Below, piece after piece: positions 1 to 53,609 of a DNA stretch of 64,000 nt; within the stretch, counting starts at the first letter, position 1; each line of letters opens with the position of its first letter. The DNA lies in the NCBI GenBank assembly GCA_963971425.1, contig OZ020519.1:23910786-23974785 (forward strand), read 5' to 3'. The notes under the pieces are model-generated. The model was not told the DNA's origin. It saw nothing but the letters and a program-made list of their open reading frames with translations, and ran no database searches. Source of the DNA: Bryoerythrophyllum caledonicum. Its lineage: Eukaryota; Streptophyta; Bryopsida; Pottiales; Pottiaceae. A program made the translations under genes and the position numbers.

Positions 1-262
1 ACGAAGCCCTCTGATCCGGTCTTGGAACTATGCGCCTAGTTCCATCCGGCCACAACCGAAATAGAAGGCCGTTCTCCCAAGGGAACCTCGCTATCTGATG
101 TCCAACTCGATCGCGCTCCATGGCCGAAAGAGCGGGCGGAAGTGTACCGTGTTGCAGCTTGTGCAAGACTGGAACGTCTTCCCACACGTCGCTAACAACC
201 TAGGCCTTGTCCGGTTCCTCATCTGCTGCCATATCAGGCAACGTCGATGTGGATCCGGACAT
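1..262 (-). pseudogene. Ty3/gypsy integrase, N-terminal region only (partial)
   Basis: Reading the minus strand from about 235 to 1 gives a sequence typical of the segment between RNase H and the integrase zinc-binding domain, with fragments such as VLHKLQHGT, ARFPWENGLLFRLWPDGT and IVPRPDQRAS. An in-frame TAG lies near 200, and the frame differs from that of the RNase H segment, so there is a frameshift around 240-262. The HHCC finger and the DDE core would lie left of position 1 and cannot be judged. Confidence 0.7.
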
Positions 263-788
263 CAATGTGAGGTAGGCTGCTCCATGCCACCCCGGGACTG
301 ACTCTCTGTCACAGTCCCCATGCCACCTGTCAAATCCTCCTCCGATGGACTTAGATTGCGAGATAGACCATCCGCATCTAAGTTTGCGATGCCCGCCCGG
401 TGTACAACCTCAAAATCATACTCCTGAATCAACAAAGCCCACCTGGCAAGCTTGCCAGTAAGCTTGTCAGACTCCATGAGCCACTTCAAAGGCTGGTGGT
501 CGGTCACCAAGGTAAAACATTGCCATACAAGTAGGGCCTAAAATGAGCTATGGCCCAAACCACGGCCAAGGCTTCCCCCTCATAGGATGAATAATTGGAC
601 TCCGCGTTGTTGTTGCTCCTAGAAGCAAACGCCACAACGTACTTCCGTCCCTCATCATCTTTTTGAGTCAACACGGCTCTCAATCCTGCCGCACTCCAAT
701 CGGTGTGCAAGTGGAAAGGTCGTGTAGCATCTGGACGCCGCAGTACAGGCGCTGAACCGAGCTTCAGCTTCAAAGTAGCAAACGCCTA
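262..788 (-). pseudogene. Ty3/gypsy RNase H domain
   Basis: This segment removes the RNA strand of the RNA/DNA hybrid during reverse transcription. Two overlapping reading pieces show the gypsy RNase H signature: HTDWSAAG with the first catalytic Asp, YSSYEGEALAVVWA with the Glu, and VTDHQPLKWL with another conserved Asp, followed by LARWALLIQEYDFEVVHR and the LDADGLSR exit. A TAG at about 786-788 separates it from RT in the same frame, and a one-base frameshift lies near 510-530. The catalytic residues look conserved; the breaks, not the active site, make it non-functional. Confidence 0.85.
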
Positions 789-1740
789 CTGCTGCTCCCG
801 TCCCCAAGTCCATGGCTGATCCATCCCCGTGAGAATAGTCAACGGCTTGGCAATCAAGCTGAAGTTCTTGACAAATCGGCGATAGTAATTCGCCAGGCCA
901 AGAAAAGCTCCAAGCCATGACACGTCGATTGGGGCTGGGATCTTCTGCACTGCGTCAACCTTCGCCTGCTGCACGCCATGACCTCCTGGAACAATCATAT
1001 GTCCCAAGTATGGCAACCGATCATGGAAGAATTTGCATTTGCCATGGTGCAAGCGCAATCCCCACTGCCGTAGCCTCTCGAATACCGCTTGAAGATGCCT
1101 TACATGCTCCTGTGGGCTGCTACTAAAAATGATAACATCATCAATGAGCATCGGGCGAACGGTAAACCGGTCAACACCCGGTCCATCACCTTCTGAAACT
1201 CAGCGGGTGCGTTCCTGAGGCCAAATGGAAGAAACTTCCAATGGTAGTGTTGATCTCTTCCACCCAGATCAACTCCCCAGAACGCGGTCTTCACGTGGTC
1301 GTCCACCGTCAATGGTAACTGGTGGTAACCGGACCGCAAATCCAGAGTACTAAATACTCTGGCATGTCCCACCGCATCAAACAACTGCTCTGGCGTGGGC
1401 ATGGGATACCGATCCGACTTGGTCTTACAATTGACCGGCCTATAATCCCCACACATCCGCTTCTCCGTCTAGTTGCCAAAGATGTCCTTCGATGGCATCA
1501 CCGTGGCACAAGCGTACTCGCCGTTGGAGAGCTCAATCAAGCTAACGGCCAACAACTCCTGACAACGAGTCTCAACCCCAACTTTCTCAGAGAGACTGAG
1601 CTTGTACGGTCGTCGGAAGATCGGGTGGTCGTCCTCCAACTGAATGTGAATCGGTTTGCCTTTGTAGCCCTCCAAATCATGGAATTAAAGGCAAAACAAC
1701 TACGATACGAACGTATAAACGCTCATACCCTTTGTGCCTC
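786..1740 (-). pseudogene. Ty3/gypsy reverse transcriptase
   Basis: Minus-strand RT with the usual order: the primer-grip region (HPIFRRPYKLSLSE), the CGDYRPVN block, FSTLDLRSGYHQLP, FLPFGLRNAPAEFQ, the catalytic IDD box (seen as LIDDVIIFSSSPQEH near 1130-1150), then the connection region YLGHMIVPGG and LGLANYYRRFVKNF. The two catalytic Asp of the xxDD box are present. An in-frame TAG at 1469-1471 falls where related elements have Trp in a GNWTE-like motif. A one-base frameshift lies just before the DD box, and an upstream frameshift or stop cluster lies near 1680-1740. It is preceded by the methyltransferase linker. Confidence 0.9.
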
Positions 1741-2132
1741 GGCACCGGTAAGATGCGGCCCCAAATCCAAAGGCCAATCATCAAACTCCGTGGTCTCCTT
1801 CTCCACCGTAGAAGACTCACCGCGTACCGGCACGGCCGGTGATTGCTACTTGATAGCAGAGAGGGCATTAATGCCCCCAGACCCCTCACTCACGGGATCT
1901 ACAGAAAATCCCGTGTCGTGATGATAAAACTGGGAAAAGATATCCCGAGCATCCTCACGGCCAAAGTCCTCTGCCAAGGCTGCAAAGATACGCTGAGCAC
2001 GAAGCTTCTCAGCCGCATGCCTCTTCAATCGAAAAAGCAACTCCGCTTCCTCGATCTCTGTGAGATGTCGCATCGCTGTCCCCTGACCATCAGAGTCTGC
2101 CCCCAGCACGCGTGGATGGTCACTCGAACGGC
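1741..2132 (-). pseudogene. Linker between methyltransferase and reverse transcriptase
   Basis: The methyltransferase frame stays open to 1846 and encodes an acidic, helix-like segment (LTEIEEAELLFRLKRHAAEK, then a Glu/Asp-rich stretch) with no motif I recognise. Past a stop at 1846 the same frame resumes with WPLDLGPHLTGAE, resembling the pre-RT segment of gypsy elements. It probably joins the two enzymes in the original polyprotein. Confidence 0.55.
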
Positions 2133-3118
2133 GTTGAGCGGCAAAACAGAGGCCACATACCCAAACGAGGGTGTTGAGGTCAATGACTTGACCCAACAAA
2201 TAACGGCGTTGGCCCTCAGAAAGATCCGGTGCGGCAGTGGTGCCTGTCAAAAAGCCCATCGCCCGCTCCCTCTCATCGGTAGAAGGCTCCTCGTAAGTTT
2301 GGGAAGAAGAATCCCAAACCATGCCCGGACCACGTGTCCTGAAGGCAAAAGAGCCCAGATAGCACATCAAGGTGGGAAATGCCCCCCGAGTGAAACCAAC
2401 GCGGTTGACCACTGCCAATGGTGGCTCATCCTCCTTGGTAACCTCCGTGGATACACGGTGGTCATCCAAAATGTCATCGACCTCACGGCGCACGGGCCGT
2501 TGCACTTGAGCAAGTGCAGAAGTGAGCGTCGTAGATGATGCCATGTTGGTCCAAATGCAACGTGGCCGATGGGCGTAAGATCCCAACGCCGCGGCATCAA
2601 CAAACGTAGGGGGACCAAGAAGGTGATGGATGTACGCCCCATCCTCACGCACCTTTGTCCGTGTATCCCCCAAAAATTCTCAAAAATGTATTCTAAAAAA
2701 TGTACCCCGGTGGTGTCGATTGGTGGGTAATTCACCACTGGATGAGCATGAGCAAATCTGCAAAGAGACCCGACCGTGGATCATCCAAGCCACGTCCAGT
2801 GCCCGCTCGTAAATGGCCTTGGCAAGGCCATCCTGCAATCACTAAGTCCACGTGATCTAACCGGCGAAGATCATCCTCACTGATCATTGTCACATCACGT
2901 GGCAACATGCCAAAACACCCTCGAATCGCAGAAGGTGGTAACTGCTCTGGATACAACGCCAGAAGACGCTGAATGTGATGGTGAGCGGCACGGTTGGCTG
3001 CAAAGCCACTATCCACGTGGATGTACCGTCGTACCTTGAGCCCGGCCTCTAACACAACCGCGAGCCCCGTACCAATACCGGCAAATAACTCCACAAGGAA
3101 AATATCCTCATCCGGTGG
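2133..3118 (-). pseudogene. Cytosine-5 DNA methyltransferase domain embedded in the gypsy pol region
   Basis: The family transfers a methyl group from S-adenosylmethionine to carbon 5 of cytosine. Motifs occur in canonical order on the minus strand: motif I ELFAGIGTG (about 3070-3094), motif IV AGWPCQGH with the catalytic Cys (about 2823), an ENF segment at the position of motif VI (ENV), motif VIII with HRPRCIWTNM (about 2545-2575), then a target-recognition region, an ERERAMGF block, and a motif X-like LLGQVIDLNTLVW ending near 2133. The length, about 320 codons, suits a complete catalytic domain. A TGA at 3119-3121, a TGA after the LLMLIQW segment and two frameshifts (near 2735 and 2670) break it. 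The order without permutation, and the ERxRxxGF block, resemble DNMT3/DRM-like rather than bacterial enzymes; that subfamily call is inference. Confidence 0.87.
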
Positions 3119-3499
3119 TCACCACTGAATAGTGCGAGCCAATAACGGAGTGGAAGAGTCCACTGACAGCAGTGGAGCATCAAGAGCGTCTACAATTTCT
3201 TCACTCCGACAAGTGAGCTCCAACGACGTCCTCCACGGCGGAAGCAAATCCTTGCAATGACGTGCAAGGATCGCCAATGGTGGGTGCTCGCGTGAATCCT
3301 CCACCCTAGACATAAATGCATATGTCTCCTCCAAAAGTGAAGAACCACACGGCAAGTCCGATGCCAGAGCACTGCATCCAAACATAGCGTCCGTTGTCAA
3401 AGTCACCGCGCTAGCAGCGAAGAGGACGGAGATGAGCTCCTTTCTGCCATCACCGGCAGACCACCGTGGCCTAATCCACGCCTCCTCCGTCCAGTTATC
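3119..3499 (-). pseudogene. Linker between protease and methyltransferase
   Basis: An open stretch of 95 codons (3119-3406) joins in frame, across a TGA at 3119-3121, to the methyltransferase motif I. It contains LTCRSEEIVDALDAPLL and ends TIQW. I recognise no domain in it. The TGA follows a Trp codon at a position where another Trp would be natural, so a TGG to TGA change is likely. Confidence 0.45.
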
Positions 3500-3835
3500 C
3501 TACCCAAATCCAAGTGGATATAGTGCCTGCTGGTCCACCAAAATATCATAGTTGGTGGCACCAGTCACAGCGCACTGAAGGGAGACATGGGAGAACAACG
3601 GACCAGATCCCACGCCAAACATCAACTGCAACGGATGTCGGTTGTAGCCCATGGCCTTCTCTGTGCCCCCAACCGATGTAACAATCGTGAATGGGCAAGG
3701 CTCGAGTTCCGAAGCACCTAGACCTAAATCTTGGGCTATCTGCTTGCAAATCATCACTGGCTGAGCTCCGGAGTCCAACATAACACGAAAGGGGGTAGCT
3801 CGAGTGGGGTTACCGTTCGTACGACCAACCACCAT
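3500..3835 (-). pseudogene. Retropepsin-like aspartic protease
   Basis: A 111-codon stretch with the aspartic protease signature MLDSGAQPVMI (D-S-G-A) near its start and a C-terminal segment NYDILVDQQALYPLGFG, as in the proteases of gypsy pol. The enzyme would cut the polyprotein into gag and pol products. It is in the same frame as the C-terminal part of gag, separated by stops at about 3839 and 4046, so gag and protease were probably one reading frame. Confidence 0.85.
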
Positions 3836-5883
3836 GACTCAGTCATCGTTTACCAAGCGTACCACCCCTGGACGCACACTACGTCGCTCCCGTACTGACC
3901 GGGCTACAACGTCAGACAAATAAGCCACTCCAGAGATCAAGTATTGATCCTTGGAGGACTGCTCCATAAGAGAGGAAGTGACATTGGCCTCAAACGCGGA
4001 AATAGCCTCCGCTGCCAACTTGGCCTGCATTGCCACCAAATCCTCCTAGGTGGGTGGAGTCGTCATTGCCTCTGACACCTCTAATGATGGCATGGGCACC
4101 TTGCCCTCTAACATACTACCCGCCAAGTGGAATACACCGGATGGTTGAAAATCCGGTGTCAAAAAGTCCACGCTAGCAAACACCGGCAAGCGCAACACCT
4201 TGTACGCCAAGGAATGTACGGCATCCACATGAGTGGAAGAAACTAGTGGTACGGTAGTCAAAGGGGGCGAAGCACCAGTAGCAGCTGCATCCGCAATGCC
4301 AAACGACAGTGGTAGCCGTGACTGACCAATGTGGTCTGGTAACCCCACGTGACGTGGACGACCACTGATACTTGGTACACTGGATGAAGGTGACACCGCC
4401 TGTGCGGTGGTCTGAGCACGAGTAGCAACTGCAGCCACAACCTCCCCGGAAGCGCTATACAAATAGGCATCTATGGCTGATGACGAACCACGACCCTTCA
4501 TTGGAGCCCGTGCGTTCACCACTTGTCCCAAAGAAGCATTCGCATTCAAGTTTTTCTCCAACTCCGCCACTTTGGCCTCCAAGTCCTTCTCCCGTGATGA
4601 ACCCGGCTGCTTCTCCGGGTGGAGAACAAAGCAGTTTTCATTGCTATGGCGGGACCAGCCATAGTGAGAACAAGTAACGAGCTTCTTCCCCTTGCCCGCA
4701 ACCTTGTCACCAAACTTGGCCGCCTTGGTCTTGGGCTTCACCTTCCCCTTCTCTGCCCTCTTCTTCTTGGAACAGTTCGGGTCCCCTTTGGTGTGATTGG
4801 GTTCTCCACAAGCCCAACAATGCACAACCTTTTCAGGTTGTGCCTCCGCCAAGCTACTCGTCGCAGTTGGAAGCTTCTTGGACTTGGGAGCGTTTATCAA
4901 TGACGTGACCAAGTCTGTGGCCTCGGACACGCCCAACGCTCTATCAAGCGCTTCCACCTCAGCAAACGCCCAAGCCAAACTGGCGTTGTTGTGATAATAA
5001 AAAAGAAGACGAGGGGTAATCAAGTCCACCATCCTCTTGTCCAATTTGGAGATAAAAATCTTCACAAGTTGGCGCTCCGTGAAAACATCACCGGCCTCCG
5101 CCGCCAACCCCGCCAATCGGGTATACATGGTGTGCGGCGTGTCCTCCTTTTCACGGCGGACATTCTGGATGCGTTGCATCTGATCACGCCGGAATCCTCC
5201 ATACTCCACCTCCAAGTGCGCCATGAACCGCGCCAGAGGGTCAAAGACTGGTGGCGGACCAACGGCCACCAATGCCGCCCGCGTGGCCTGGGCCAAACGC
5301 GACATGGCCCCCATACCGAACGCCTCATTTACAATGGCAATGCCCTTCTGCTTGGAATCCTCACTGGAGGAGCCTCCTTCCTCCTTGGGTTGATCGGTAA
5401 AGGTCGGGACAAGAGCAACGGCGCTCTCTTTGAGCGTAGTCACCAACTCCACCCGGTCGCGTCGGTAATCCTCAACCGGACGCAACTCCTCTGCATGCAA
5501 TACCGACCACCTCCCATAGGTCTCGAGCGCCTCCAGCTCCAAATATTGGGCAAAAGCTCAAAAGCGTACCAGTCGTTGAAAGACGGTGAACGCTGACGCT
5601 TCTCCTTCATCCATGTCTGGAAACGGAGCCGCCAATCGGGTAGGGAGATGCCCCGAGCCCGACCTGAGAAACGATCACGCACAACGTGGCGGTGATCGTC
5701 CTCCATGTTGTCAAACGTGCCCACACTCCAAACTCGAAGCCTACGGTCGGTATCCAACGCCGAATAAGGCTCAAAAGCCTTGTCGGTAATCGACCCTGGT
5801 CCAAAGTCTAAAGCCGGTGCACTCTTCGGAGAATCTGGTGAGGGAGAACGGTAATACCGACTTCTCGTACTCACCATAAACAA
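3836..5883 (-). pseudogene. Gag polyprotein with two zinc knuckles
   Basis: The nucleocapsid/capsid protein of the gypsy element. The N-terminal piece (5883 down to about 5545) begins MFMVSTRSRYYRSPSPDSP and continues to FNDWYAFELLP; a one-base frameshift near 5545 leads into a 498-codon stretch (5542-4046) with the capsid-like RFMAHLEVEYGGFRRDQMQR and LVKIFISKLDKRMVDL. A zinc knuckle CWACGEPNHTKGDPNC (C-x2-C-x4-H-x6-C) lies near 4800, and a second one near 4655 has its second Cys changed to Tyr (CSHYGWSRHSNENC). A predicted helical LEAKVAELEKNLN follows. A TAG at 4046 interrupts the frame, which continues to about 3839. Confidence 0.85.
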
Positions 5884-6655
5884 AAATCCCCCAGGTAACT
5901 ATCTATGGGTGCTATCTAAAGGGAAAGGGTACGGACGGACAACCTGCACCTGCAAAATCACTAAGCTATGTGCTTTACCGGTCATCACCTCCAGCTAACA
6001 CAGGTTCAACCACATCCCCCCACATGAAAAGGTCTTGCCGGTCATTACTCCGACTTCATCCCTACGGTACCCTATCACAAGCTAGCACAACAATAAATGG
6101 GGCCACCGGAAAACACCGACAACAAGCCCGCAACACGGGGGAGGTACCGCACCAGAATCCAGAAATCCAACCCGGATCCTCTCCCCCAACAACATAAAAG
6201 CAGGAAAATAAAAGAGACAGCGCCACTGGCACACGCCTACAGTGGATGCCTCAAAGTCGCAAAACCTAACGCAAATACGTCCCTCGCTCCTTACTTCCTA
6301 GCCTTTGATCTCGCAGACGTCGTCCAATGAGTGCTCCCTTGACCGTGCACAATTCGGGTCCCCCGTCCTTGTTGTCCCATGCTCCACGTGCCCTCTTTTG
6401 TGCGCCGTGGATGTGGACTCGTGAGTCTCGAGATTCTGTCCGCGTCAGATTCTCTTCTCATTGGCTTCGACCCCTGGTCAACGGCCAGCCGGCGGGTTTA
6501 ACCACCACCAGGCTGCGTTCCCAAAGGAAGTTCGCTCCCTCGGTGCTCCCCGATGTTCCTGATGTTCCCCGGCCCACTGTCCAACGTCCTTCCTTGGCCA
6601 CCGCCTCCAACTAGAGAATCCAGAGACTCTCTAAAAAAAAATCTCAAAGTGGACA
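5884..6655 (-). other. Gypsy 5' leader and probable 5' LTR
   Basis: GC-rich, non-coding sequence upstream of gag. The right edge, where GC-rich DNA gives way to AT-rich DNA, lies near 6615-6655, and TGTCCACTTTGAG on the minus strand is a possible LTR start. No convincing primer-binding site was found. Without the 3' LTR the limits stay provisional. Confidence 0.45.
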
Positions 6656-7164
6656 CCAACTTAAGATACTAAATTTCACTAGTTATTGCAAAATATTAAG
6701 CACTAAGTAATCCACTATTCTTCTACTCCTCTTCCCATCTTCTAAAAAATCTTTTAATGCAAAAATGATAATAATATAGGAGAAATAAGAAAAGGTCTTT
6801 GTCAAGTGAATGTGTTGCATATCACAAGAGTAGTCAAACGTCACGCACACCACAATGGGTGAATCAACGAGTGTGAAGTACAAATGGAAAGCATGAGACT
6901 TTACTAATGGCTTAAACCGCCACTTACAAGCAACTCTCAACAATACTCTCCACTCTCACTCACAAAGCTTGACTTGACAAAGACGTCAAGTCAAGGACAA
7001 GTGCGGCGCTATACGCACACACACGCAACCCTAACTGGATGAAAGTCATCCACGGATGAATAGGGTGCGCCGCCATATGTCCCTAAACATACGAAGATTA
7101 GTAACAAACTAATCTACACTAAAACTACAATACGGAGAGGCCCTCGACGCCACGTCCCGTGATA
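6656..7164. other. AT-rich intergenic DNA
   Basis: No gene seen. It holds a short inverted motif around 6966-6996 (CTTGACTTGAC ... GTCAAGTCAAG) and nothing else I can support. Confidence 0.5.
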
Positions 7165-12474: not shown

Positions 12475-13676
12475 ATGGGCTCGGCTGCGAGGTTTCCGCT
12501 GGTTCGTTACTACTCGATTTCAGCGCTGATAGTTGGTTTCTGGATAGTCAGCGCCGCGTTCTGGGTCCCGTGAAGAGCAACAGCGGGCGTGAGCCGTCAC
12601 GACGGTGCACGAGCGATCTACGACAGGGGGCTGAAGGGGATGGAATCCGAGGTGGTGGAGGATCATGAGGGCGACGGGGATGAGGGGTTCGAGGCGGCAG
12701 CTCTGTCGCCGCTAGAGGAGGTCTCGGAGGAGGAGCTTGCAGACGTCGCTGCCGCGCCCCTTCCACTCACCAGAGATTTTCGCGCTGAGCTACGACGAGA
12801 TGTGGAACCGGATGCAGGTATGGGTGTACCTGGAGCAGGGCGGGTCGAAGTATGAGCACCGGTTCGAGGGCGTGGAGGCGGACGTGACAGCGGATCTGAC
12901 CTCGACGGCGGACCTCTTCTTCCGCTTGTTGAAGCGCAGCAACTTCTTCACCGAGAGCCCCGCGCGCGCGCACCTCTTCCTGATGCCCGTGTCCTTTGAC
13001 ACCCTCTGGGTGGACCTGGGCCCGACGTGCGTGGCGGACCAGCTGCGCCGCTACATCCGAAGGATCCGCGAGGCGTACCCGTTCTGGGACTCGTCGCTGG
13101 GCGCGGACCACCTGTACCCCTCGTGTCACGCCTTCGAGCACAACAGCAAGCACCGGAACATACTGGAGTTTGGCAAGAACGCTATCCAGCCGCGCCGCGC
13201 GCATCACGCTCTCGTATTTTCCAGCTGGAACCACCGCTCCATCCGTCGCGGATCCGGGATTCGAGGTCGAAATCGACCCGTCTCCGCATCGATCATCACT
13301 CTACTCCAAGCCCGCGCGCAGCAAGTTCTGCGTGAGTGCGCCGCCGCACAAGTCGCTCAGCCTGGTGGACGCGCTCAGGTTCGGGTGTGTGCCGGTACTC
13401 GTCTCCAGCTCAGCGTTCCATGATCTGCCGTTCCAGGGATTCCTCAACTGGCATGAGTTTGCGATAGTGCTCGGGGTCGACGAGCTTCCGAATCTGAGGA
13501 GTGTTTTGGAGCGGGTTTCGGCGGCGGGGAACCGGCGGATGCAGTACTTGGGCCACCAGGCGAGCAAGCATGTGGAGTGTAACAATGCACCCGTCGCGTA
13601 CGATTCGTTCCATATGACGCTCGTGGAGCTCTGGGTGCGGCATCAAAAGTATCAGTACACTAAAAGTTCCATTTAG
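12475..13676 (+). pseudogene. Exostosin-family (GT47) glycosyltransferase pseudogene
   Basis: Plant GT47 enzymes are Golgi type II membrane proteins that build cell-wall polysaccharides. The ATG at 12475 opens a frame with a signal anchor (YYSISALIVGFWIVSAAFWV), ended by TGA at 12571 (CCG-TGA, probably from CGA). An acidic stem follows. After a frameshift near 12760 comes FALSYDEMWNRMQVWVYL, then ARAHLFLMPVSF and YPFWDSSLGADHLYPSCHAF, matching the family block with GADH and SCH. A second frameshift near 13215 leads to SKFCVSAPPHKSLSLVDALR, FGCVPVLVSS, LPFQGFLNWHEFAIVL and YDSFHMTLVELWVRH, the normal C-terminus. It is about 400 codons, close to full length, without introns and far more GC-rich than its surroundings. 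It lies between long inverted repeats, which suggests capture by a mobile element or a retrocopy. The specific sugar activity cannot be told. Confidence 0.88.
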
Positions 13677-29232: not shown

Positions 29233-31254
29233 CAGTACCCTGTAACAAGTGTTGCAACACATTCTGTTTTTTCACTTAAAACATATCCCATGGCCTGATT
29301 TAGAATGATGGTGTTGACATGATAATCATCACATCTCCATGAGATTTTTTGCATCATGGAAGGTGTTCCAGTTACCTTCATACACCATGCATTTTCTAAA
29401 TATAAAGAGGCATCCATTGCCATGTGTCTACCAAAATTGCCATCATGCTTAAAAATCTTGGAAAAGGGTACCCTTCTTAATGTGATCACTTCTTCTCTGG
29501 GATATCAGATTTTGAGTATGTTTGAGCTTGGGAGGGTCCAGAGATACACATACATGTTTGCAAGTCATCTTGATGGTACACATTTCTTAGAAAAATTGTG
29601 TGCAACAAGTCATGTTTGTCAAACATATCATTTCTGTGTTGTTGTTAGGACCTTTTTTATCAAACTTTTTGTGGATGTAAGTGTTGTTTGAGGATTGTGC
29701 ACCATGACAAGGAGTTATGTATCAAATGATATACGACACATGATAGTTGGTATGCAGAAAGCTGGCATGTCAGTGAGTGAAATTGGAAACATTGTAGGAA
29801 GGCCAAAATCGACTATTTCAAGGATTCTCAAGCGATTTAGAATTAGTGGCTCTGTATTGCAAGCAAGTAGGTCTGGTAGGCCGCGAAACATGAGTGATCG
29901 AGATAGGAGAAAGCTCCATAGAGATCTTAGTAGTAATCGTCGTGCTCCTCTTGCAGAATTGTGCAACAATGTGACATCTTCCGTGGGCATGTCAACTTTA
30001 CGTAAAGAGCTTCATGAGCTTGGTGTTAACAGTTGCATTGCAGTGAAGAAACCATTCTTGAGTGACATACACAAGGCAAAGAGGTTGGCTTTTGCAAAGG
30101 AGCACTTGCATTGGACGATTGACGATTGGAGTAATGTGATTTGGACCGATGAGTCATCCTTTGAAGTTGGAAAACCATCACGCCAAATTCGTGTCTGGCA
30201 AAAAGCACATGAACGCTACTACTACAATTGCTTAGCACCTACATTCAAATCCGGAAGGACTTCAATTATGGTATGGGGTGCTATCACTGGCTCTTCTAAG
30301 TCTTATTTGGTGTTAATTCCTCCTAATAGACGCACTGCCAAAGATTTTGTAGAGATAGTATCTCAAGGAGCATTAGAGCATTATTATTAGCACCATGACC
30401 ACTATGAGCACCTCATTTTAATGGAGGACGGTGCTCCAGTACATGGTAGTAATATACAAAAAGATTGGAGAGAGCAACTTGGATTGAAAAAGCTTGAATG
30501 GCCACCAAATTCTCCTGACCTTAATCCTATAGAGAATGTCTGGAAGTAAGTTAAAGATCAAGTGCAACAGAGAAATAGACCACGAAACAAAGACGAAATG
30601 TGGACATCAGTCAATCTGGCTTGGGAGGATATACCTCAAGAAAGCATCAAGAAGTTGATTTCAACAATGCCAACCCGGATGAAAGCTGTAATAGCAGCTC
30701 AAGGTGGTAGCACTCGATGGTAGTAGGTGTTCCATTTTACTGTAGAATATTTGTTAGTGAGTAAGACATATTGTAAACTTCATATCATATTAGGCTTCTA
30801 TACTACTATAGCTTTGTAATGATACCTTATTTGACTTTATTTGATCAAATTTTGATTTAATATATGAGTTTGATTTCTGTAGCCTAGAATATGAATGAAT
30901 GGAAACTATGAAAATACTTTAGAGCCACATAGAGGAGAATTTTACCTACATAGTGAACATCTTTGTAATACCAAGAATGTGAACAATGATATATCCTATA
31001 AATTGGTGCAATCAAATTTTTAAAAATCATATATATTTCTCAGTTTATTTTTTTTGAAATTAAGTGAATAAGATAAAATAATTCACCAAAAATAGAGATT
31101 TCATTTTTTGACATTGACGTTTTATGAACACGTGAAGGGTCCGTAACACAAAAGATTTAATAGGATAAATTTAATAAAATCCTCCCATATTGAAAATGAA
31201 TGAGAGAATTTCAAGAGTTCACAAAATGGTTGCAAGACATGTTGGAGGGTACTG
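29233..31254 (+). mobile_element. Complete Tc1-type DNA transposon (2022 bp)
   Basis: The ends are defined by comparison with uninterrupted copy 1 (10340-10360). The left end reads CAGTACCCTGTAACAAGTGT, the right end in reverse complement CAGTACCCTCCAACATGTCT; the repeats extend about 26 bp with four mismatches. TA is duplicated at 29231-29232 and 31255-31256. CAGT termini and a TA target are the Tc1/mariner signature. It carries one transposase pseudogene. Confidence 0.93.
29695..30723 (+). pseudogene. Tc1 transposase (DD34E), two in-frame stops
   Basis: Cut-and-paste transposase of the IS630-Tc1-mariner superfamily, 342 codons, normal length. An N-terminal paired-like DNA-binding region (SVSEIGNIVGRPKSTISRIL) is followed by the GRPR hook (residues 61-64) and a second helix-turn-helix. 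The catalytic triad is intact: Asp152 in WTDES, Asp in MEDGAPVH and Glu in NPIENVW, with 34 residues between the last two. TAG at 30388-30390 and TAA at 30547-30549 interrupt an otherwise open frame ending TAG at 30721-30723. An upstream ATG context (GCACCATGACA at about 29698) could be the true start. Confidence 0.93.
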
Positions 31255-38660: not shown

Positions 38661-38904
38661 TTAAACCAACCCATGCACTACACAACAAATATCGACACTT
38701 ATATCAATATATACAACAACTTTCACAATATCCATCGCAGCACATTATCTATGCCATAGTCACTACTATCAGCCCCTCAATTGAGACATGTAATAACGCA
38801 CTTCTCCCCCACATCCAAAATACCACCTGCACAAACTGGACAAAACTATACTCGATACCCTAGCATCCCTACAAAATCCCCTTGAACAACATGTACACAC
38901 AAAA

Positions 38905-39736
38905 GAAGAAGAAGAAGAAGAAGAAGAAGAAGAAGAAGAAGAAGAAGAAGAAGAAGAAGAAGAAGAAGAAGAAGAAGAAGAAGAAGAAGAAGAAGAAGAA
39001 GAAGAAGAAGAAGAAGAAGAAGAAGAAGAAGAAGAAGAAGAAGAAGAAGAAGAAGAAGAAGAAGAAGAAGAAGAAGAAGAAGAAGAAGAAGAAGAAGAAG
39101 AAGAAGAAGAAGAAGAAGAAGAAGAAGAAGAAGAAGAAGAAGAAGAAGAAGAAGAAGAAGAAGAAGAAGAAGAAGAAGAAGAAGAAGAAGAAGAAGAAGA
39201 AGAAGAAGAAGAAGAAGAAGAAGAAGAAGAAGAAGAAGAAGAAGAAGAAGAAGAAGAAGAAGAAGAAGAAGAAGAAGAAGAAGAAGAAGAAGAAGAAGAA
39301 GAAGAAGAAGAAGAAGAAGAAGAAGAAGAAGAAGAAGAAGAAGAAGAAGAAGAAGAAGAAGAAGAAGAAGAAGAAGAAGAAGAAGAAGAAGAAGAAGAAG
39401 AAGAAGAAGAAGAAGAAGAAGAAGAAGAAGAAGAAGAAGAAGAAGAAGAAGAAGAAGAAGAAGAAGAAGAAGAAGAAGAAGAAGAAGAAGAAGAAGAAGA
39501 AGAAGAAGAAGAAGAAGAAGAAGAAGAAGAAGAAGAAGAAGAAGAAGAAGAAGAAGAAGAAGAAGAAGAAGAAGAAGAAGAAGAAGAAGAAGAAGAAGAA
39601 GAAGAAGAAGAAGAAGAAGAAGAAGAAGAAGAAGAAGAAGAAGAAGAAGAAGAAGAAGAAGAAGAAGAAGAAGAAGAAGAAGAAGAAGAAGAAGAAGAAG
39701 AAGAAGAAGAAGAAGAAGAAGAAGAAGAAGAAGAAG

Positions 39737-39766
<30 letters not shown>
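38905..39766 (+). repeat. Pure (GAA)n microsatellite, 862 bp
   Basis: About 287 uninterrupted GAA units. The long Lys, Ser, Leu and Phe reading frames across it are artefacts. It joins directly to the 3' end of the minus-strand LINE, in which orientation it reads (TTC/CTT)n. The LINE copy ending at 62679 has the same 3' sequence with only a few CTT-like units, so the tract grew from the LINE tail. Confidence 0.97.
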
Positions 39767-39767
<1 letters not shown>

Positions 39768-39906
39768 CCGGTCTCCGGAGGAGGCCGGCGTGAATAAAGT
39801 GTTTGTTTGTTCCACTTACTAAAGCGATGTCCACTGGACAAAGGATTAGTAGGGTGGAACTACTTCCCCCTCTTGAGGATAGACACTATAGTATAAACAT
39901 AACAGA

Positions 39907-41002: not shown

Positions 41003-42457
41003 CTAGTACCAATTTTTTGCTAGTTCATCCGCTTTTTCATTCCCAATAATATTCACATGAGCTCTAACTTTGTGTAGTGATAAGAATTGGGTGCGTGCCT
41101 GTAGCATTTGCACCATTGATGTTAAAATAGTTTTATCGAGGTGGCCATTGTGCATAGTAGGGTGTTGAATTTGTGTGTTTAAGAGGTATAATACATTGAT
41201 GCAGTCTGTAAATATGTATGCGGGTTCATATGGGTATTTAGCATTTAGAATTCGTAGTGTTTTATGGACGGCCATCATTTCGGCTCTGATGATGTTTTGA
41301 GGTCCGTGTAGTCTTTTGGCTATTTTGATATCTTTTGGTGCATTATATATGCCAAAACTAGCTTTTTCACTATGCCAGTGTCCTGGGCTTACTTCTTCAG
41401 GTTCTTTGAATGATCCGTCTGTGTAATAGCTATATTCGGAGTTAAATTTAAGGGATAGGTTTGTGTTGTAGGATGGAAGTGGTGTTGAAATAATTGGAGA
41501 TGTAGTATTTGGAGTTGGATATTTGGCTTTGGACCATTGTTTGTTACGGTTAACCGTGATAGGTGTGGGTGTTGATGGGGCTAAATTGGCATATATTTGT
41601 TTTATGTTGAGGGTATCGGTTAGTGATTTTAAATTTTCTACATTTATTTCGGTGCCTATTGTGTTGTTTTGATGGTGTACGCATATTATTTGTAATGTGG
41701 ATTTTTCTGTTATGGGCTTTTTGTTTAGCTCTTTGGGTATGGTTGTTTCAAAATAGGCTATGGTCTCTGCTGGGAATAGACATATGATGTGAGAGTCTAA
41801 GTATGGGCCTTTATGAGGAGTAAGATTTTGGTACCAATCTTCATCCAGCAATACCAGATAGGTTATATTTCTTGTGTTATGTTTTGCTGCGAGCCTAGCC
41901 CAGTGTAATGCTTGTATGGCTTTTTCTTTGTTGTGTGGGTGTGCGTATCCAATGCCGTCCCATTTGTAGTCAAACGCTTTGCGGAGTGAGCCAAACACTT
42001 GGTCTCTAGAGAAGGGAGAGAAATATTTAGATATCTTTGTGGAGCATGTGACTGGAGATGAGAAGTACGATTGTTGAATATTAAATGTTGTGATAAGGAA
42101 ATCTAGTATTTCTGTTGGTATGGCATAATGTGTCCGTTTGAGGGGGTCGGTCTTAGGAATTCTGTATTTGTATCTTTGGTATAGCCAAAAAACTCCAGTT
42201 TCAAATGGTTGGATTTTTGGTTCTAGTCTATGTGGGTTGTTCAGTGCTAGATGGTATTGTTTCCAGAGCCATTCTAGTATATTTGTAGGGATAGTTATTA
42301 GGTATTTTCCACTATTTTCATAGATGTGTGCATCTTTTTGTTGTATTTGGATAGTATGTGTTTGTGAGTTAATGTCCTTTTGAGGATTACATTCTGTGAT
42401 AGAAATCTTTGCTAGAGGAATTTGCGTAGGGGTGTGATGGATCGTATGTCTGTACAT
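41003..42457 (-). CDS. LINE segment with intact RNase H domain (484 codons open)
   Basis: An open frame with a long N-terminal region of unknown role and a C-terminal RNase H domain from about residue 344. The tetrad is complete: Asp347 in YTDGS, Glu393 in RAEMMA, Asp418 in FTDC and Asp477 in GNEKADELAK. It would degrade the RNA template during LINE second-strand synthesis. It is part of the RT polyprotein, so the initial Met is probably not a real start. It is the longest undamaged frame of the element. Confidence 0.8.
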   Translation of the reverse strand: MYRHTIHHTPTQIPLAKISITECNPQKDINSQTHTIQIQQKDAHIYENSGKYLITIPTNILEWLWKQYHLALNNPHRLEPKIQPFETGVFWLYQRYKYRIPKTDPLKRTHYAIPTEILDFLITTFNIQQSYFSSPVTCSTKISKYFSPFSRDQVFGSLRKAFDYKWDGIGYAHPHNKEKAIQALHWARLAAKHNTRNITYLVLLDEDWYQNLTPHKGPYLDSHIICLFPAETIAYFETTIPKELNKKPITEKSTLQIICVHHQNNTIGTEINVENLKSLTDTLNIKQIYANLAPSTPTPITVNRNKQWSKAKYPTPNTTSPIISTPLPSYNTNLSLKFNSEYSYYTDGSFKEPEEVSPGHWHSEKASFGIYNAPKDIKIAKRLHGPQNIIRAEMMAVHKTLRILNAKYPYEPAYIFTDCINVLYLLNTQIQHPTMHNGHLDKTILTSMVQMLQARTQFLSLHKVRAHVNIIGNEKADELAKNWY

Positions 42458-42477
42458 TGGTCTTGTGGGTGGTGCGT

Positions 42478-42930
42478 TTAAATGATGTTGGAGTAGAATT
42501 TGTTAGTTTCCGTTTGGTAATATTGTATGAAGCATGCTACTTGGTGTGATACGGTACTAGGATCATGCCATGGAAATAGGTTTCGTTGTGTTTGCCATTT
42601 TTTGTATGTAGTTCCTTGGTTTTCCCATTGGCCATGAAATGATGTATCCTCTACTTTGATGTTATTAGTGTCATAGTATGTGTGGTGTTCAACCCCTATT
42701 ATGCTTTGTATAGGGTATGTTGTGGGATTTTTGAGGATGTGTGGAGGTGGTTTGGAGTAACGTGGTTGTGGTGGGTCACGTGGATGTGTAGGTGGGTTAG
42801 GAATATTAGGGGTTATATTGTTGCTAGGGCAAATATATTCTTCTTTTAATGTTCGTGGGTTTGCGTGCATGTTGCAAGTGTTACAGCAAGTGTCTTGCCA
42901 TTTAGGAAGACAAAAGAGTTGTTTTGCTAG
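42478..42930 (-). pseudogene. LINE Cys-rich/proline-rich connector
   Basis: Cysteine cluster (CCNTCNMHANP) followed by a Pro-rich stretch (PNPPTHPRDPPQPRYSKPPP) and a conserved block ending WQTQRNLFPWHDP. The plus copy has the same segment at 48780-49190. Function unknown; the cysteines may bind zinc. Confidence 0.65.
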
Positions 42931-45110: not shown

Positions 45111-45222
45111 ACAAAACATATATACACCGAGTTCGTAGAACAAAACCAAAACATAATTTATCAATAACTCCATCTATGACAAACTATTTGACTTAATTCA
45201 CAAACATGATACACCGCCAACC

Positions 45223-46450
45223 TTGGACACAATCCAAACCAAATTCTCCTTCCTTTCAAAAGACCTAATAATAGAATCACTCAGATGTTTTGAACCTATT
45301 CCAAAATACTCACACCCACCAGCCGATAGCGACTACACTTCCCTACAACCTAGGCCTTCAATATGTAACCATAATAAAACTACATTTACCACTTGGAATG
45401 GAGGGTCACTAAAAACAACACTTTCCAACATTCTAAACTTGACCACCAAATCTCTAACCCTACCGGCAATAATTTTTATACAAGAAACTATACTCACAGC
45501 CAAAAAATCCACAAAAAACATCGAAAAACTCTTTCCAAACTATAAATTGATCTTTAACAACACACACAGACTCACTAGATGCATGAATCAAAGAATGCCG
45601 TATACACCCACAAGAGGTGAAATACTAACACTCGCTCACAACACTTATGCCTTTCTAGGTAACTTATCTAAAATACCAACCTCAGCTATTATATCTCCCT
45701 ATCTACAAATCATCAAAATCACAAACAACCTCTTGCAACCATGGCTACTAATACATCTATACATGCCCTCATATACACAGGACATAAGACTCATTAATGA
45801 AATATAGATTACCATAACAAACGAAACACATAGCCATCCAAACCACACATACGTTCTCGTTGGTGAATTTAATAGAGATATTGCATAAATAGGCTGATAG
45901 AACAAACACAATATAATCCCCTCTCACAACAAAGACCTAGATTGGAAAAAACTTTACTGAATATCTCCAACTCACATTCATTCAAATAAACAAACACTCA
46001 CATCTCTAGACAATGCGGAAACAACTACACTCACTCTAGCTTAGTAGATGGATTTTATATACACACGCCAAATCCACAACAATATACATCAACTACAATC
46101 CTCTCTAATAACTTGAATTTTGAACACTACCCATTAATACTACAAATCCCTGACAACAAATTAATTAGCAAACCTCCACCAATAACATTACAATACTACA
46201 TTCCATACCATTAGAAAACCTAAAAAAATTTCACACCACCTTTCTTGAAAGAAACACATTAGCCATTGAAAACCTAACTACAATTTTGGAAAACAACAAA
46301 CATTTATTACACACACAATGGAATAATGCGTGTGACACATTGGATACATTTACTCAAGAAATTTCCACAACAATGGAACAAACATGCACTACACAACCTC
46401 TTCCACAACTTACTCCTAGAACTGCTCAACAAGGAGGATTTTTCCTTGTA
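45223..46450 (+). pseudogene. LINE apurinic-type endonuclease region
   Basis: The open part 45223-45807 shows TTWNGGSLKTTLSNIL, PAIIFIQETIL with the metal-binding Glu, and LLIHLYMPS; past a stop, YVLVGEFNRD corresponds to the GDFN box with Asp changed to Glu. Such endonucleases nick the target DNA to prime reverse transcription. Stops are frequent after 45807. The following segment to 46450 is degraded connector sequence. Confidence 0.72.
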
Positions 46451-46609
46451 AACTCGTAAAACCCTGGAAACAACACCTGAAAACATACCATCTTATTAGA
46501 AAAACTATAGGAACCGTAAAAAACAGTCCACACTGGTGCAATGACCCCGTAATTAACAATATACAAAACTATCAACATACCTCCATACTACAACCCCGGG
46601 AAGACACTA

Positions 46610-48122
46610 TACTTCTAGAACCTTGGATCAACAAAGTTGCGGACATAGCACGGACAACCAAAAAACTTGCCATAAAAATTACAACTGAATATACAAAAGA
46701 ACGCATCAAAAAGGCCATATAAAAAAACAAACCACTATACGAGAAAGGCCCCAAGAAAATTAACCATAAAGTATTCAAATCCAACACAACACAAACATTA
46801 GATTGTATCATAGACCAAAATGGCAATATTCTGACAAATACCAAAGAAATAACAACCAAAATCTACCTCCAACAATCAAAAATCAATCGACCTAGAGTAC
46901 CAACATGCCACTACCAAATTAAACATCTTCAAGCATGGACATGTAGTGTTAGAAAGTACCCATGGCACGAACTAGACGGATTCACTCTTGAAAAAAGAGG
47001 CAAATCAAACATGCCATTACACACATACTTCACCTCAACAACTTACAATATGAGCCTAAAAATCTTGGCAACAATAAAGCCCTTGGCCCAGATCTCATCC
47101 CCAACTCAATTTTTGAAAGGCATGCCTCAACGGTTCTACAAACTTCTTCAACTATTCTTCTTGCACTGCTACAAACAAAAACAAATCCCTAGACTTTGGA
47201 AAAACAACATTACTATATTACTACACAGAAAGGCGACCCTTTCATACTAACAAACCACAAACCCATTGCACTAGCCAATACAATTTATAAACTCTTTACG
47301 AGCACGTAAACCTCCATTCTATCAGCTTACGGAGAATTGCGCAAAATCCTATATGACAACCAAGAGGGCTTTAGAGCAGAACGTAGCACAGCTAAACAAA
47401 TCCAAACGCTCGTAGCAACACTTGAAGATGCTAGACTCACCAATCGTGACATGTATGTACTTTACATAGACTTCAAAAATGCATTTGGATCGATAGTTCA
47501 TGCTAGACTGCTTGCAGTACTGAGTGACTTTGGATACCCTCTTGACGCAGTGGAACTAGTTGGCAATATTTACTCAAACTCCACTACCACCTACATCGGT
47601 GAGCATTTTGGTAAAACCTATTCAATCCCCATACAACCTGGCACCATTCAAGGCGGCACCCTAAGTCCATATCTCTTCATCATATTTTTTGAACCCCTCC
47701 AACAGTGGCTCCAAAATGGGAACAACGGCTATACATTCAAAACATCCAAAGTCACCATTAACTCAGTCGCCTACGTAGACAATTTGGTAGCGGTATCTGA
47801 GAAACTGAAATCCTTACAAAACCAATCAAATCAAATTGACATATTTTGTGATTGGACAGGCATGGAACTTGGAGTACCAAAATGCGCGGTTGTCGGATGC
47901 CCCAACCTGTTAAAAATGAGTACCACAACATTTAAAGCCCTAACACAAGCTACAAACATAAACTATCGTAACCACCCCATTCCAACTCTACACCAAAATG
48001 GACCGTATCCATACCTTGGCACACAACTTGTCCCCTTGTTAAAGTGGAAAATTCAAACTCATGTTACCACAACCAAACTCACGTTACCACAACCAAACTC
48101 ACAAAACAATGTAAAGACCTAA
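46610..48122 (+). pseudogene. LINE reverse transcriptase (plus copy)
   Basis: Pre-RT segment (YTKERIKKAI, TLDCIIDQNGNI), a broken first RT block, then an open 261-codon stretch (47337-48122): NQEGFRAERSTAKQIQTL, LYIDFKNAFGSI, GTIQGGTLSPYLFIIFFEPL and SVAYVDNLVA. The YADD box reads Y-V-D-N, so the second catalytic Asp is Asn (about 47781). It matches the minus copy throughout but carries different lesions. Confidence 0.85.
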
Positions 48123-49380
48123 TAAATTGCCTAGCTACTATGAAACAAAAAGTAAACATGATTGATACAGTTATTAGACCCGGAGTTGCCTATAGTTTTT
48201 ACACAGTGCTATACTCCACATCTGCCATAAAAAATTAGACAAGAAAATATTAGCCACACAAAAAATTGTATGTGGAATCCCTAAATGCATGTCGGATAAT
48301 ATAACACAACTTCCTCATAATCTTTTTGGACTAGAAGCCTTCTTGTTGAAAAATGATCATCTTAGATGCATTGGTGAACAACTTCTAAATGCCTTGTACG
48401 GCAAAGGACGGTTAGGTAAAATATATAATGGCCTAATACATCTCATCCTTGCAAAATACGGTGGAGACAAACAATTACCTCGCACTAAACACCACGACTG
48501 TCATAGATCCCCCATCACCCGCACACTATTTGTACTTAAAACCAAGGGCAAAACCAATCTAAAAAGTACACTAGACAATTTTCTACTAGAACCCGCACCA
48601 CTTGAAAAAATGTGGATACAAGAAGCTCAAGAAATCACACACCTAAACGGACAATTATTTATGAAAATGTTACAATTTTTTTGCCTTCAACATCACAAAA
48701 ATTAATCGAACTACACTACCAAATGGTACACATCTAATGAATAACAATGAATTTAAAAAGTACCACCGTACACCTTCAAAAATAATAATAAGTGCACAAA
48801 ACCTAGCAAAACAACTATTATGTTACCCCAAATGCCAAGAAGGGTGCTCCCTACAATGCAACATACACCCAAGCCTCCAATCATTAAAAACCAAATACAT
48901 TTGCATTAATAACAACCTACAACCCAATACTCCTACCCCATCTATCCACCCACGTAACCCACCCCACCCACAACACTCATTACCGCCTCCACACATACTA
49001 AAAAACCCTGGAACATACTTAATCCACGCCATAATAGACCACAAACACCGTCAATATATTGATCCCAATATAATTAAAAAGAATGATACTTCATGCCTAT
49101 GCCAATGGAAACTTTTAGATATTACCTACAATAAATGGCAAGGACAACAAAGCCCTCTTCCCTTGGCACGACCCCAACACCTCCTTACATAACATAGCAT
49201 GCCTCAAGATATACTACACAACTAGACGTAATAAACTGTACCATAACATTACCCAAGCACATCACTCACAAGTACAAAATTGCCATAAAAGATCCATCAA
49301 CCCCCACATTAATACCCTCAACAAGTATCTCTATCATACAATGTAATCCCACAAAAGATATAAACACACAACAACCTACA
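48123..49380 (+). pseudogene. LINE post-RT connector (plus copy)
   Basis: Pieces ITQLPHNLFGLEAFLLKNDH (48300 on), then Cys-rich LLCYPKCQEGCSLQCNIHPS and a Pro-rich stretch equivalent to 42478-42930. It ends abruptly at 49380 where the 33 bp inverted repeat starts. Confidence 0.7.
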
Positions 49381-50823: not shown

Positions 50824-51768
50824 CAGTAGGGTGACATTCAAATTGGCGTTTGGGCAATTCCAGGGATGGTGTCCCACACTGCTGCCAACTTTGACGCCCT
50901 CCACAGGGCTGAAAAATTGTTCTTTTATCCTGAAATTTTGGGAACAGCATCACCTCTATGTTAAAAACATGCATACCAAATTTCAAGTCCAGAGGACTTA
51001 TAAAACAAAAGATATTTAAAATTAACCACCATGGGGTAGCTGTGAGAAAAGTTTCTCAACCGCCAACTTTGACACCATCCCAAGGATTGAGGAAATTTTT
51101 TTTGCCCATGGAATTTTTGGAGTGAGAACACCTTTATGTTGATTACATGTGTGGAAATTTTCAAGTCCAAAAAATGCACAAAAAAAATCACATCCCAAAT
51201 CTACCAACATGTGTAATTGTGAGAAAAAAAGGGAAAAACCATTTTACTACTTCCAACTTTGACACCCTCCCTAGGATTGAGGGTTTGTTATTTCAACATG
51301 AAATTTTTGACACATGGTAACCTTTATGTTGATAACATGTGGGAAAATTTTCAAGGCCAAAAAATGTATTCAAAAGAAGATATTCAAAATCTACTAACAT
51401 GGGGGTTAGTTGTGAGAAAAGTTTCACAGCTGCCCACTTTGACACCCTCCCAAGAATTCAAAAAAATTTATTTGTCCATGAAATTGTGGGTATGAAGTCA
51501 CCTTCACGTCAAATACAAGTGTGGAAAATTTCAAAATCCAAAAGATTTACACAAAAAACATATACCAAGTCTACCAACATGTATTGTTGTGACAAACAAA
51601 GGGGAAAGTTTACCACTACTTCCAACTTCAACACCCTTCCTAGGATTGAGTTTTTGTTGATACATAATGAAATTTTGGCCACAAGATCATCTCTATATTG
51701 GTAACATATGAGATAGATTTCAAAGCCAAAAGATGTATATACAAAAAAAATTATTCCATATCTACCAA
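50824..51768 (+). repeat. Left terminal inverted repeat with internal tandem units
   Basis: A CCAACTTTGACACCCTCCC-like block followed by a GGATTGAG-like block occurs near 50885, 51061, 51251, 51431 and 51620, spaced 176-190 bp, with a CTACCAACATG block between. The reading frames here recur in the right arm simply because the arms match. Confidence 0.9.
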
Positions 51769-52769: not shown

Positions 52770-53609
52770 TATAGACTATTTTTTGTGATGTTGATACAAT
52801 ACTAAATGCTCTTCAATAAGTAATCAATATAACACTCAACCTATGGCAATTGGATTATATAATTCAATAAACACAAAGGACTCAGCTTATGGCATGTGCA
52901 CTAAATAAATCAATCAACAACATAACACTCACATTGGCATGTGCATTAGGTGATAACCATGGCATGTGCATTAGATGATAACCATGGCATGTGCATCAAT
53001 TGAGTGAACCAAAAAATATTCTTGGACATACTCATGCCACATGTGATTCGTCAACACTCAGTAAACTAGTCAACAACACTCAAAAAAAAAAAAATATATC
53101 CACTCAATAAATCAGCCCATATGTGATATGCCCACTCAATGGATCAGCCCATATGTGATATGCCCACTCAATGGATCAGCCCATATGTGATTTGTCTACT
53201 CAATCAGTCAACAACACTCAGCCCATATCTAATATGTCCACTCAATACCATCTCAATATTCACTCTCAATACCATCTCAACATTCACTCTCAATACCATC
53301 TCAACATTCACTCTATTACAAATCACATGACAAAATACACACAACATTTCCTTTACATAGTGCTCAATAGATATTTGGAGGAGAAAACTCGTCATACGTG
53401 CATAATGCACACCAAACCTTATGACAAGTGGATTCTTCTACACAAAACAACTCTGCAATTCTACATGTAGATTTCATTGATCTTTTCAAGATGCATTTAT
53501 GTTTGGTAGCTTAGTCACATGAATAAAATCAATGAAGAGTACGAGGTGTCAAAGATAATTTGACATTCTCAATATGCCCCTTCAATATAGTTTCTCATTG
53601 TTACAAACA
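52770..53609. repeat. Transposon interior with minisatellites
   Basis: 53101-53196 holds three 32 bp units (CACTCAATGGATCAGCCC...). 53236-53318 holds about three and a half 24 bp units (CACTCTCAATACCATCTC...). GGCATGTGCATTAG motifs repeat at 52930-53000. No second gene is seen. Confidence 0.8.

Follow-up and report, generated by a model that had tools for sequence, protein, structure and literature searches.

A decayed retroelement at the locus

The window, by which we mean the whole stretch of 64,000 nucleotides that was analysed (C7:23910786-23974785 of the 437 Mb assembly of the bryophyte Bryoerythrophyllum caledonicum), opens with a decayed Ty3/gypsy-type element on the minus strand. The element fills window positions 1-7164 and continues for 2152 bases (2.15 kb) before the window, reaching genome position C7:23908634; its A and B repeats were found by blastn and read at their ends. 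Its 5' terminus is repeat A1 (6808-7164, minus strand, as for all features of the element), in which the starting TG has decayed to TA. Inside A lies a 13-nt putative self-primer (6972-6984), identified by its complementarity to a primer-binding-site-like sequence that was read immediately 3' of A1 (6794-6807).

The coding part begins with the decayed gag part of ORF1 (4046-5883), outlined from its open reading frames, for which Pfam gave no significant match. An aspartyl protease follows (3500-3835; PF13650 scores 24.9 bits, over its cut-off of 24.3, with E=3.3e-05), and then a decayed DNMT3-like C5 cytosine methyltransferase (DNMT) domain (2038-3124, which improves on the 2133-3118 first annotated), delimited by a PF00145 match to its first part and by tblastn against the intact sister copy L014. 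The ORF1 stop codon, UAG, stands at 1846-1848 and is followed by CAAUCA (1840-1845). ORF2 retains a decayed reverse transcriptase (RT; 786-1456), covered by two separate PF00078 matches (E=1.9e-12 and 4.3e-12), and a decayed RNase H region (262-773) recognized from open reading frames, with the domain order borrowed from the intact ORF2 of L014. By the same order, the integrase and a PHD finger lie beyond RNase H, before the window start. These positions bear out the initial annotation's order of protease, methyltransferase and RT on the same strand (3500-3835, 2038-3124 and 786-1456, all minus). An Rfam search over the window returned 0 matches.

The window element is 87.7% identical to L014 over 6311 bp. 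It is old: A1 and A2 are separated by a K2P distance of 0.049, whereas the range is 0.003-0.019 for four sisters, one of which was partly read. It is a dead copy of a self-sufficient family.

Other mobile sequences were observed in the same window. A LINE-like ORF at 41003-42502 (minus strand) matches Pfam PCIF1_WW (E=4.6e-11) ahead of its RNase H. Since PCIF1 is a family of RNA methyltransferases, the window may contain a second retroelement with a methyltransferase-like domain. Another element of similar appearance, in reverse orientation, was noted by eye at about 45157-49192. Tc1/mariner-like transposases occur at 51762-52775 (minus strand; Pfam HTH_Tnp_Tc3_2 and DDE_3) and, by eye, at 29692-30390 (plus strand). 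A GAA trinucleotide repeat of about 900 bp, open in several frames, occupies 38886-39797, and an Exostosin GT47 fragment (12984-13676, plus strand; E=1.7e-12) is possibly a piece of a host gene.

Copies across the genome

Searching the genome with the family B DNMT gave 113 scored places from 2314 first-look candidates; the whole domain was covered in 93 of the 113 and covered without a stop in 62, while 11 lay in an open frame, free of stops, that is 1351 residues or longer. A search for the family, starting from 1057 candidates, scored 123 places, among them one that looks bacterial, and an RT query scored 100 places of 5594, with a scored DNMT within 3.5 kb in 78. Five of the 22 RT places that had no scored DNMT nearby were inspected: in three the domain is complete but interrupted by frame changes, one retains its second half, and one (L085) is without DNMT. 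A secondary insertion of the methyltransferase into a single copy, which the initial annotation had allowed for should intact relatives prove to lack the domain, is ruled out, since sister copies carry it; the intact L010 and L014 show the same order, gag-protease-DNMT and then RT.

Two families are distinguished, which are 54% identical over the DNMT. Family A consists of L010 and L011, plus a subgroup of L012 and L019 about 79% alike in DNA, and family B of L013, L014, L015 and the window copy. L010 and L011 are 99.87% identical over 9380 bp and are counted as young insertions. L010 (562-1209) and L012 (8258-8950) have a similar small ORF 5' of ORF1 in family A. The family B copy L085 (C10:11720300-11722900) lost its DNMT by a deletion of about 1.5 kb; its identity to L014 is 87% over gag and protease and 96% in the region round the ORF2 start, which hints at recombination.

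The bacterial-looking place, L025 (C14:16011000-16020999), is of a different kind. Between flanks of 0.32-0.44 GC lie about 6 kb of GC-rich DNA (0.55-0.70 per kb) that encode a C5 methyltransferase of full length (PF00145, E=2.4e-62); an ORF resembling a transposase was noted by eye. Contamination, an assembly chimera or transfer are alternative explanations.

The assembly also contains chlorophyll-binding genes. Among the 120 of 2983 matches listed for an LHC protein, the nearest named ones of ordinary length come from Sphagnum fallax (92%), Sphagnum troendelagicum (91%) and Marchantia paleacea (89%), with longer multi-domain proteins ranked above them by summed score. Flowering plants likewise attain 89%, a JGI cluster stands at 97%, and none of the 120 bears a Physcomitrium name. 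In the PDB the leading chain is a long LHCI-2 protein, followed by the moss entries 7xqp and 8htu. Together with the liverwort affinity of family A RTs described below, these matches fit a bryophyte host, moss or liverwort.

Two-ORF layout and the intervening stop codon

In the intact copies L010 and L014, ORF1 comprises a zinc knuckle, the protease and the DNMT, and ORF2 comprises RVT_1, RT_RNaseH, Integrase_H2C2 and rve, followed by a C-terminal PHD finger. The ORF1 models are weak: zf-CCHC passes the Pfam cut-off only in L010, where Retrotrans_gag stays below it, and the protease model PF13650 and the gag models score below cut-off in both copies. From these domain contents the DNMT belongs to the gag-side ORF, so that the initial annotation's placement of the domain inside pol has to be revised: it closes ORF1 (gag-protease-DNMT) before the UAG.

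ORF1 and ORF2 share one frame, with a single UAG between them. The junction was examined in 34 copies, namely the window copy, 22 of L002-L024 (L009 being the window copy) and 11 of L042-L053 (L042 being L014); the first search patterns required a stop codon and the search was repeated without that requirement. UAG-CARYYA is present in 29 of the 30 distinct copies with a located junction, as CAACCA in family A, CAATCA in family B and CAGTCA in L016. The remaining copy, L012, reads CAG for TAG, a sense codon instead of a stop, and in L002, L017, L020 and L021 the junction was not located. That the R and Y letters vary while the motif is kept fits selection for the motif.

UAG_CAR_YYA is described in the accessible text of PMC3542737 as the consensus for efficient readthrough in tobamoviruses. 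We infer from this context that the ORF1 terminator is a leaky stop of the tobamovirus type. Ordinary translation of intact copies would then yield a Gag-PR-DNMT protein, and readthrough of the UAG a rarer Gag-PR-DNMT-RT-RNaseH-IN-PHD protein. On this scheme, DNMT would be produced and packaged together with Gag and would outnumber RT.

The methyltransferase domain

The initial annotation's identification of a cytosine-5 DNA methyltransferase stands: the first segment of the window domain (2732-3118, minus strand) matches Pfam DNA_methylase significantly (PF00145, E=1.2e-07, 31.9 bits, cut-off 22), whereas the second segment (1846-2673, minus strand) alone has no Pfam match. The window DNMT is a pseudogene, with two parts in different frames and stop codons within, and its protein identity to the intact L014 domain by tblastn is 90% over residues 1-145 and 92% over residues 149-360. 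Motifs I (ELFAGIGTG), IV (AGWPCQGH), VIII (HRPRCIWTNM) and X (GQVIDLN) are present as had been annotated, and the supposed VI-like ENF appears by eye to be a motif VI remnant in a shifted frame.

The class of the enzyme was assigned from intact sister copies instead of the broken window pieces. Against PDB sequences, the first window piece matches M.HaeIII (2.1e-04), M.HhaI (8.8e-04) and DNMT3A (0.014), and the second has no C5 methyltransferase match. The intact family A domain matches DNMT3A best (5.9e-15), followed by DRM2 (1.4e-08, over part of the domain) and M.HhaI (2.5e-08), and no chain named DNMT1 or CMT was matched at E up to 1. A profile built from the DNMT alignment again ranks DNMT3A first (6.8e-24), with chains named DRM2 at 8.4e-06 among the best 60 of 79 matches; Ty3 and Gag chains appear lower in that list, including a Ty3 Gag-Pol chain at 1.2e-09, because the alignment also holds gag and RT of some rows. 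Motifs I, IV, VI, VIII and X follow one another in this order within one domain, and DRM2 matches query residues 3-129 only. The element DNMT is therefore best described, from its sequence, as a DNMT3-like C5 methyltransferase domain nearest to DNMT3A. Of the annotated 'DNMT3/DRM-like rather than bacterial-type' enzyme, the DNMT3 part holds on the intact sisters and their PDB matches. A DRM-like enzyme is ruled out by the unrearranged motif order together with the PDB scores, and a bacterial-type enzyme is less likely on those scores, though the broken window piece alone prefers bacterial methyltransferases.

Catalytic-type motifs are kept in the element DNMTs (I, IV with PCQ, VI with ENV, VIII and X). 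Across 26 rows of the alignment, E144, N145, R186 and R304 are invariant and C101 is nearly so. In family A, omega over the DNMT is 0.04-0.16 in 14 pairs; over this region L010 does not differ from L011, and dS is 1.5 to 1.9 in the pairs that include L012. Three family B pairs gave 0.15, 0.20 and 0.40, and ten open family B copies (L014 again among them) gave a median of 0.24 over 44 pairs, with a range of 0.10-0.47. These values come from open copies, a choice that lowers omega, and 3 of the 61 pairwise values fall at 0.37-0.47. The pattern is that of a domain under purifying selection.

Retention of a domain need not mean retention of its activity, and the DNMT could be a passenger or structural relic that does not methylate and is kept for nucleic-acid binding or Gag folding. 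The matching domain of KnitGypsy-Dnmt3 produced no methylation in yeast, a result that its authors call inconclusive in the accessible text (PMC5890265); the Pfam match in L014 is confined to residues 10-154, the first part of the domain, and one copy, L085, exists without it. A relic would, however, hardly be expected to keep motifs I, IV, VI, VIII and X with key residues invariant or nearly so and omega well under 1, and we regard this explanation as improbable.

Termini, and a proposed model of self-priming and integration

Termini were read in seven copies, two of them near-identical. Six (L010, L011, L013, L014, L015 and the window copy) have the arrangement A1-genes-B1-A2-B2, and L012 (with L087; C3:4090000-4103500) is a complete family A copy of the form A-genes-B, without A2-B2. 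The repeats A1 and A2 are direct, and the 3' end is B-A-B (6/7) or B (1/7) and not a plain LTR. Elements start with TGTC and end with GACA. Perfect 4-bp target duplications accompany TG/CA ends in six of the seven copies with both flanks (L010, CCTC; L011, TAGT; L012, CCGT; L013, AGCA; L014, GTGC; L015, TCTA); the window copy has the imperfect duplication ATCG/ATTG and TA for the starting TG.

Directly 3' of A1 stands ACTTGACAAAGACC in family B and ACTTGAGAAAGATC in family A. In both families 13 of 13 nucleotides inside A are complementary to this site; two positions differ between the families, with matching changes on both sides. None of 5000 shuffles was as good in either family (L027 and L013), and L012 carries the same pair of self-primer and site. 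An ordinary tRNA-primed LTR element was considered and rejected, as no TGG-type primer-binding site follows A1 directly and the termini are not plain LTR...LTR. Tf1 primes itself, and in the Tf1/sushi group of Ty3/gypsy elements the element's own RNA serves as primer next to the 5' LTR; members of this group have ordinary LTR...LTR proviruses and are not known to carry a DNMT.

In both families a purine tract stops 0-2 nt short of B1. This tract, together with the primer site next to A1, suggests that the LTR made by RT would be B+A. At A2-B2, the end of A is joined to the start of B (the A|B joint). The B|A joint reads GACA-GC-TGTC, a perfect palindrome, with GT for GC in the window copy. A pattern search for the B|A joint found none in nine loci, most of which, besides L012, stop short of the 3' end; L012 has no such joint, having no A2.

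These features can be combined into a model of replication. Most likely, the element's own RNA would prime reverse transcription, 13 nt of repeat A annealing just past A1, and the product would have B+A as its LTR. Joining the ends of this B+A element would create a circle with an A|B joint of the kind read at A2-B2. The integrase would then open GACA-GC-TGTC between B and A, inside the LTR. A two-LTR circle cut at one B|A joint would give A-genes-B-A-B, and a one-LTR circle A-genes-B, in either case inserted with TG/CA ends and a 4-bp target duplication. In foamy virus, the integrase cuts a palindrome at the junction of two LTRs.

The structure of L012, A-genes-B, is the one expected from a one-LTR circle and adds some support to reading the provirus as a circular permutation of an ordinary LTR element. 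The same form could also arise by recombination between B1 and B2, so that L012 supports the circle model without proving it. More broadly, template switching, recombination or nested insertion might have generated A...B-A-B with no circle opened by an integrase, the joints having been read as sequence alone. Such origins are doubtful but deserve serious weight: against them stand the A|B joint, the primer-binding-like site after A1 and the purine tract before B1, which are found in both families, and the outer TG/CA ends with perfect 4-bp duplications in 6/7 copies.

In the last step of the model, the DNMT would methylate the new DNA, or the chromatin that it enters, and so mark it as self. 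An opposite role, in which the element DNMT benefits the host through self-limitation, silencing the element's own copies and limiting damage rather than shielding new cDNA, is raised as a possibility in the accessible text of PMC5890265. Selection for such restraint would be difficult to maintain in competition with copies that drop the domain, whereas 78 of the 100 RT places keep a scored DNMT, and we consider this role very improbable. Taken as a whole, the family is probably a self-sufficient gypsy-type element with its own DNMT3, a leaky UAG, self-priming and a circle opened by the integrase, in which the DNMT marks the element's DNA as self.

Relatives and origin of the domain

The DNMT search returned 59 proteins, the named ones coming from Marchantia polymorpha, Sphagnum fallax and Closterium; no Klebsormidium protein is named among these 59. 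The best 120 of 1621 matches to the RT add Calypogeia, Klebsormidium, Chara and Haematococcus. Both domains are present in 40 elements (38 single proteins plus families A and B), of which 17 have the DNMT upstream of RT; in the other 23 it follows RT, whether between RNase H and integrase or elsewhere. In the RT tree as in the DNMT tree, a single branch separates the two domain orders (support 100 and 99). RT and DNMT distances are correlated (r=0.75, n=40), with r=0.90 in the upstream group and 0.63 in the other, and 0 of 999 permutations reached the observed value in each case.

In the RT tree of 50 rows, a group of 38 (support 93) unites the DNMT carriers with two Klebsormidium, two Haematococcus and other RT-only rows, and family A groups with liverwort RTs. 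The two RTs of Klebsormidium nitens (P0095 and P0123) thus lie inside the clade of DNMT carriers; elements carrying Dam and two Chara RTs fall just outside the 38 rows. These are quick trees with open forks; in the RT tree no branch sets the chosen outgroup apart. In the DNMT tree built with two outgroups, the branches leading to these are very long, and the tree leaves the domain's origin unplaced. The position of the Klebsormidium RTs and the agreement of the two trees favour an old capture of the DNMT.

The competing explanation is that each green lineage took up a DNMT3 separately, as the accessible text of PMC5890265 proposed for Klebsormidium. That the DNMT occupies one of two positions, either before RT or in the interval from RNase H to integrase, would suit separate events, and this explanation is strengthened by human DNMT3A, which falls among the element rows beside P0059 and P0030 (support 89, with long branches flagged). 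On the other hand, one branch divides the two orders (23 and 17 rows) in the RT tree and in the DNMT tree alike, and both RTs from Klebsormidium sit inside the upstream-order part, so that we judge repeated capture unlikely, though some way from negligible. The old-capture reading can be extended to a gypsy clade of green plants and algae whose DDE integrase acts on circular cDNA with B+A LTRs, cutting the palindrome so that the provirus is a circular permutation, and in which a DNMT3 made at Gag dose marks the circle, the domain having been captured once, long ago, and carried via Chlorophyta and Streptophyta into bryophytes. We hold this extension tentatively, as a possible scheme that falls somewhat short of an even chance.

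Several further sequences were noted. The C-terminal 140 residues of P0129 (Haematococcus lacustris) contain by eye a cut DNMT motif I stretch, which may point to an RT-DNMT order in a chlorophyte. After the PHD finger, P0034 and P0047 have C-terminal regions that by eye resemble a Rossmann methyltransferase, and these regions had no Pfam match at E up to 0.01. Viral contigs yielded 28 loci with C5 methyltransferase matches, at 30-53% identity in the best segment, and two further scans of viral contigs for relatives found none.

Comparison with known elements and significance

Among published elements, the closest in kind is KnitGypsy-Dnmt3 of Klebsormidium nitens, which, according to the accessible text of de Mendoza et al. 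(2018; PMC5890265), likewise combines Gypsy domains with a DNMT3-type DNMT, DIRS-like repeats and purifying selection on the DNMT. The A-coding-B-A-B arrangement found here in 6/7 copies is that of the KnitGypsy-Dnmt3 legend (PMC5890265). The same text places the DNMT of KnitGypsy-Dnmt3 in the Pol polyprotein ORF and regards it as independently acquired. The present element differs from that description in its land-plant host, a DNMT that ends ORF1 before a putatively leaky UAG, a C-terminal PHD finger, 4-bp duplications and a putative self-primer site. The initial annotation's assignment to the published lineage of charophyte and dinoflagellate elements, or to a related one, is accordingly supported by the Klebsormidium RTs in the clade and the A...B-A-B termini, with the difference that the host is a land plant and not an alga or dinoflagellate.

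SymbioDIRS-Dnmt3 of Symbiodinium also has a DNMT3-type enzyme and A-coding-B-A-B repeats in the accessible text (PMC5890265), but it is a DIRS element with a tyrosine recombinase, whereas the present element has a DDE integrase (rve). Membership of the DIRS order was rejected: with E up to 0.1 allowed, neither ORF of L010 or L014 matches PF00589 (tyrosine recombinase), and 6/7 copies have perfect 4-bp duplications, whereas DIRS elements are characterized by the lack of a target-site duplication. The element is called gypsy-type on its proteins, ORF2 having the RT-RNaseH-IN order and DDE integrase of Ty3/gypsy elements; its termini are a variant. Gypsy elements with Dam (e.g. P0160) share protease, RT, RNase H, integrase and PHD, but the domain between their protease and RT is Dam (PF05869) and not a C5 DNMT, and their PHD finger stands before the integrase, not after it. 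Such elements were seen in P0160, P0161, P0166 and P0171, and a PHD finger is present in three of these.

A 2019 paper states, in its accessible text, that land plants, such as tracheophytes, are without such transposons (PMC6338049), and the word 'gypsy' is absent from the accessible part of PMC12344493. By title and abstract opening, we found no report of DNMT-carrying retrotransposons in bryophytes in the open-licence literature. The kind of element was already known; new here are a bryophyte host, the abundance, a DNMT at the end of ORF1 with a putatively leaky stop behind it, a PHD finger, 4-bp target duplications, a putative self-primer, permuted ends and indications that the capture is old.

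DNA methylation is a classic plant weapon against transposons. A plant transposon with its own methyltransferase, at more than 100 places in one bryophyte genome, reverses the usual methylation story. The leaky stop would set the dose of the enzyme, and the proviral structure points to the site at which the integrase may cut. If the old capture is true, the association between element and methyltransferase would go back to the time when the algal and plant hosts concerned diverged.
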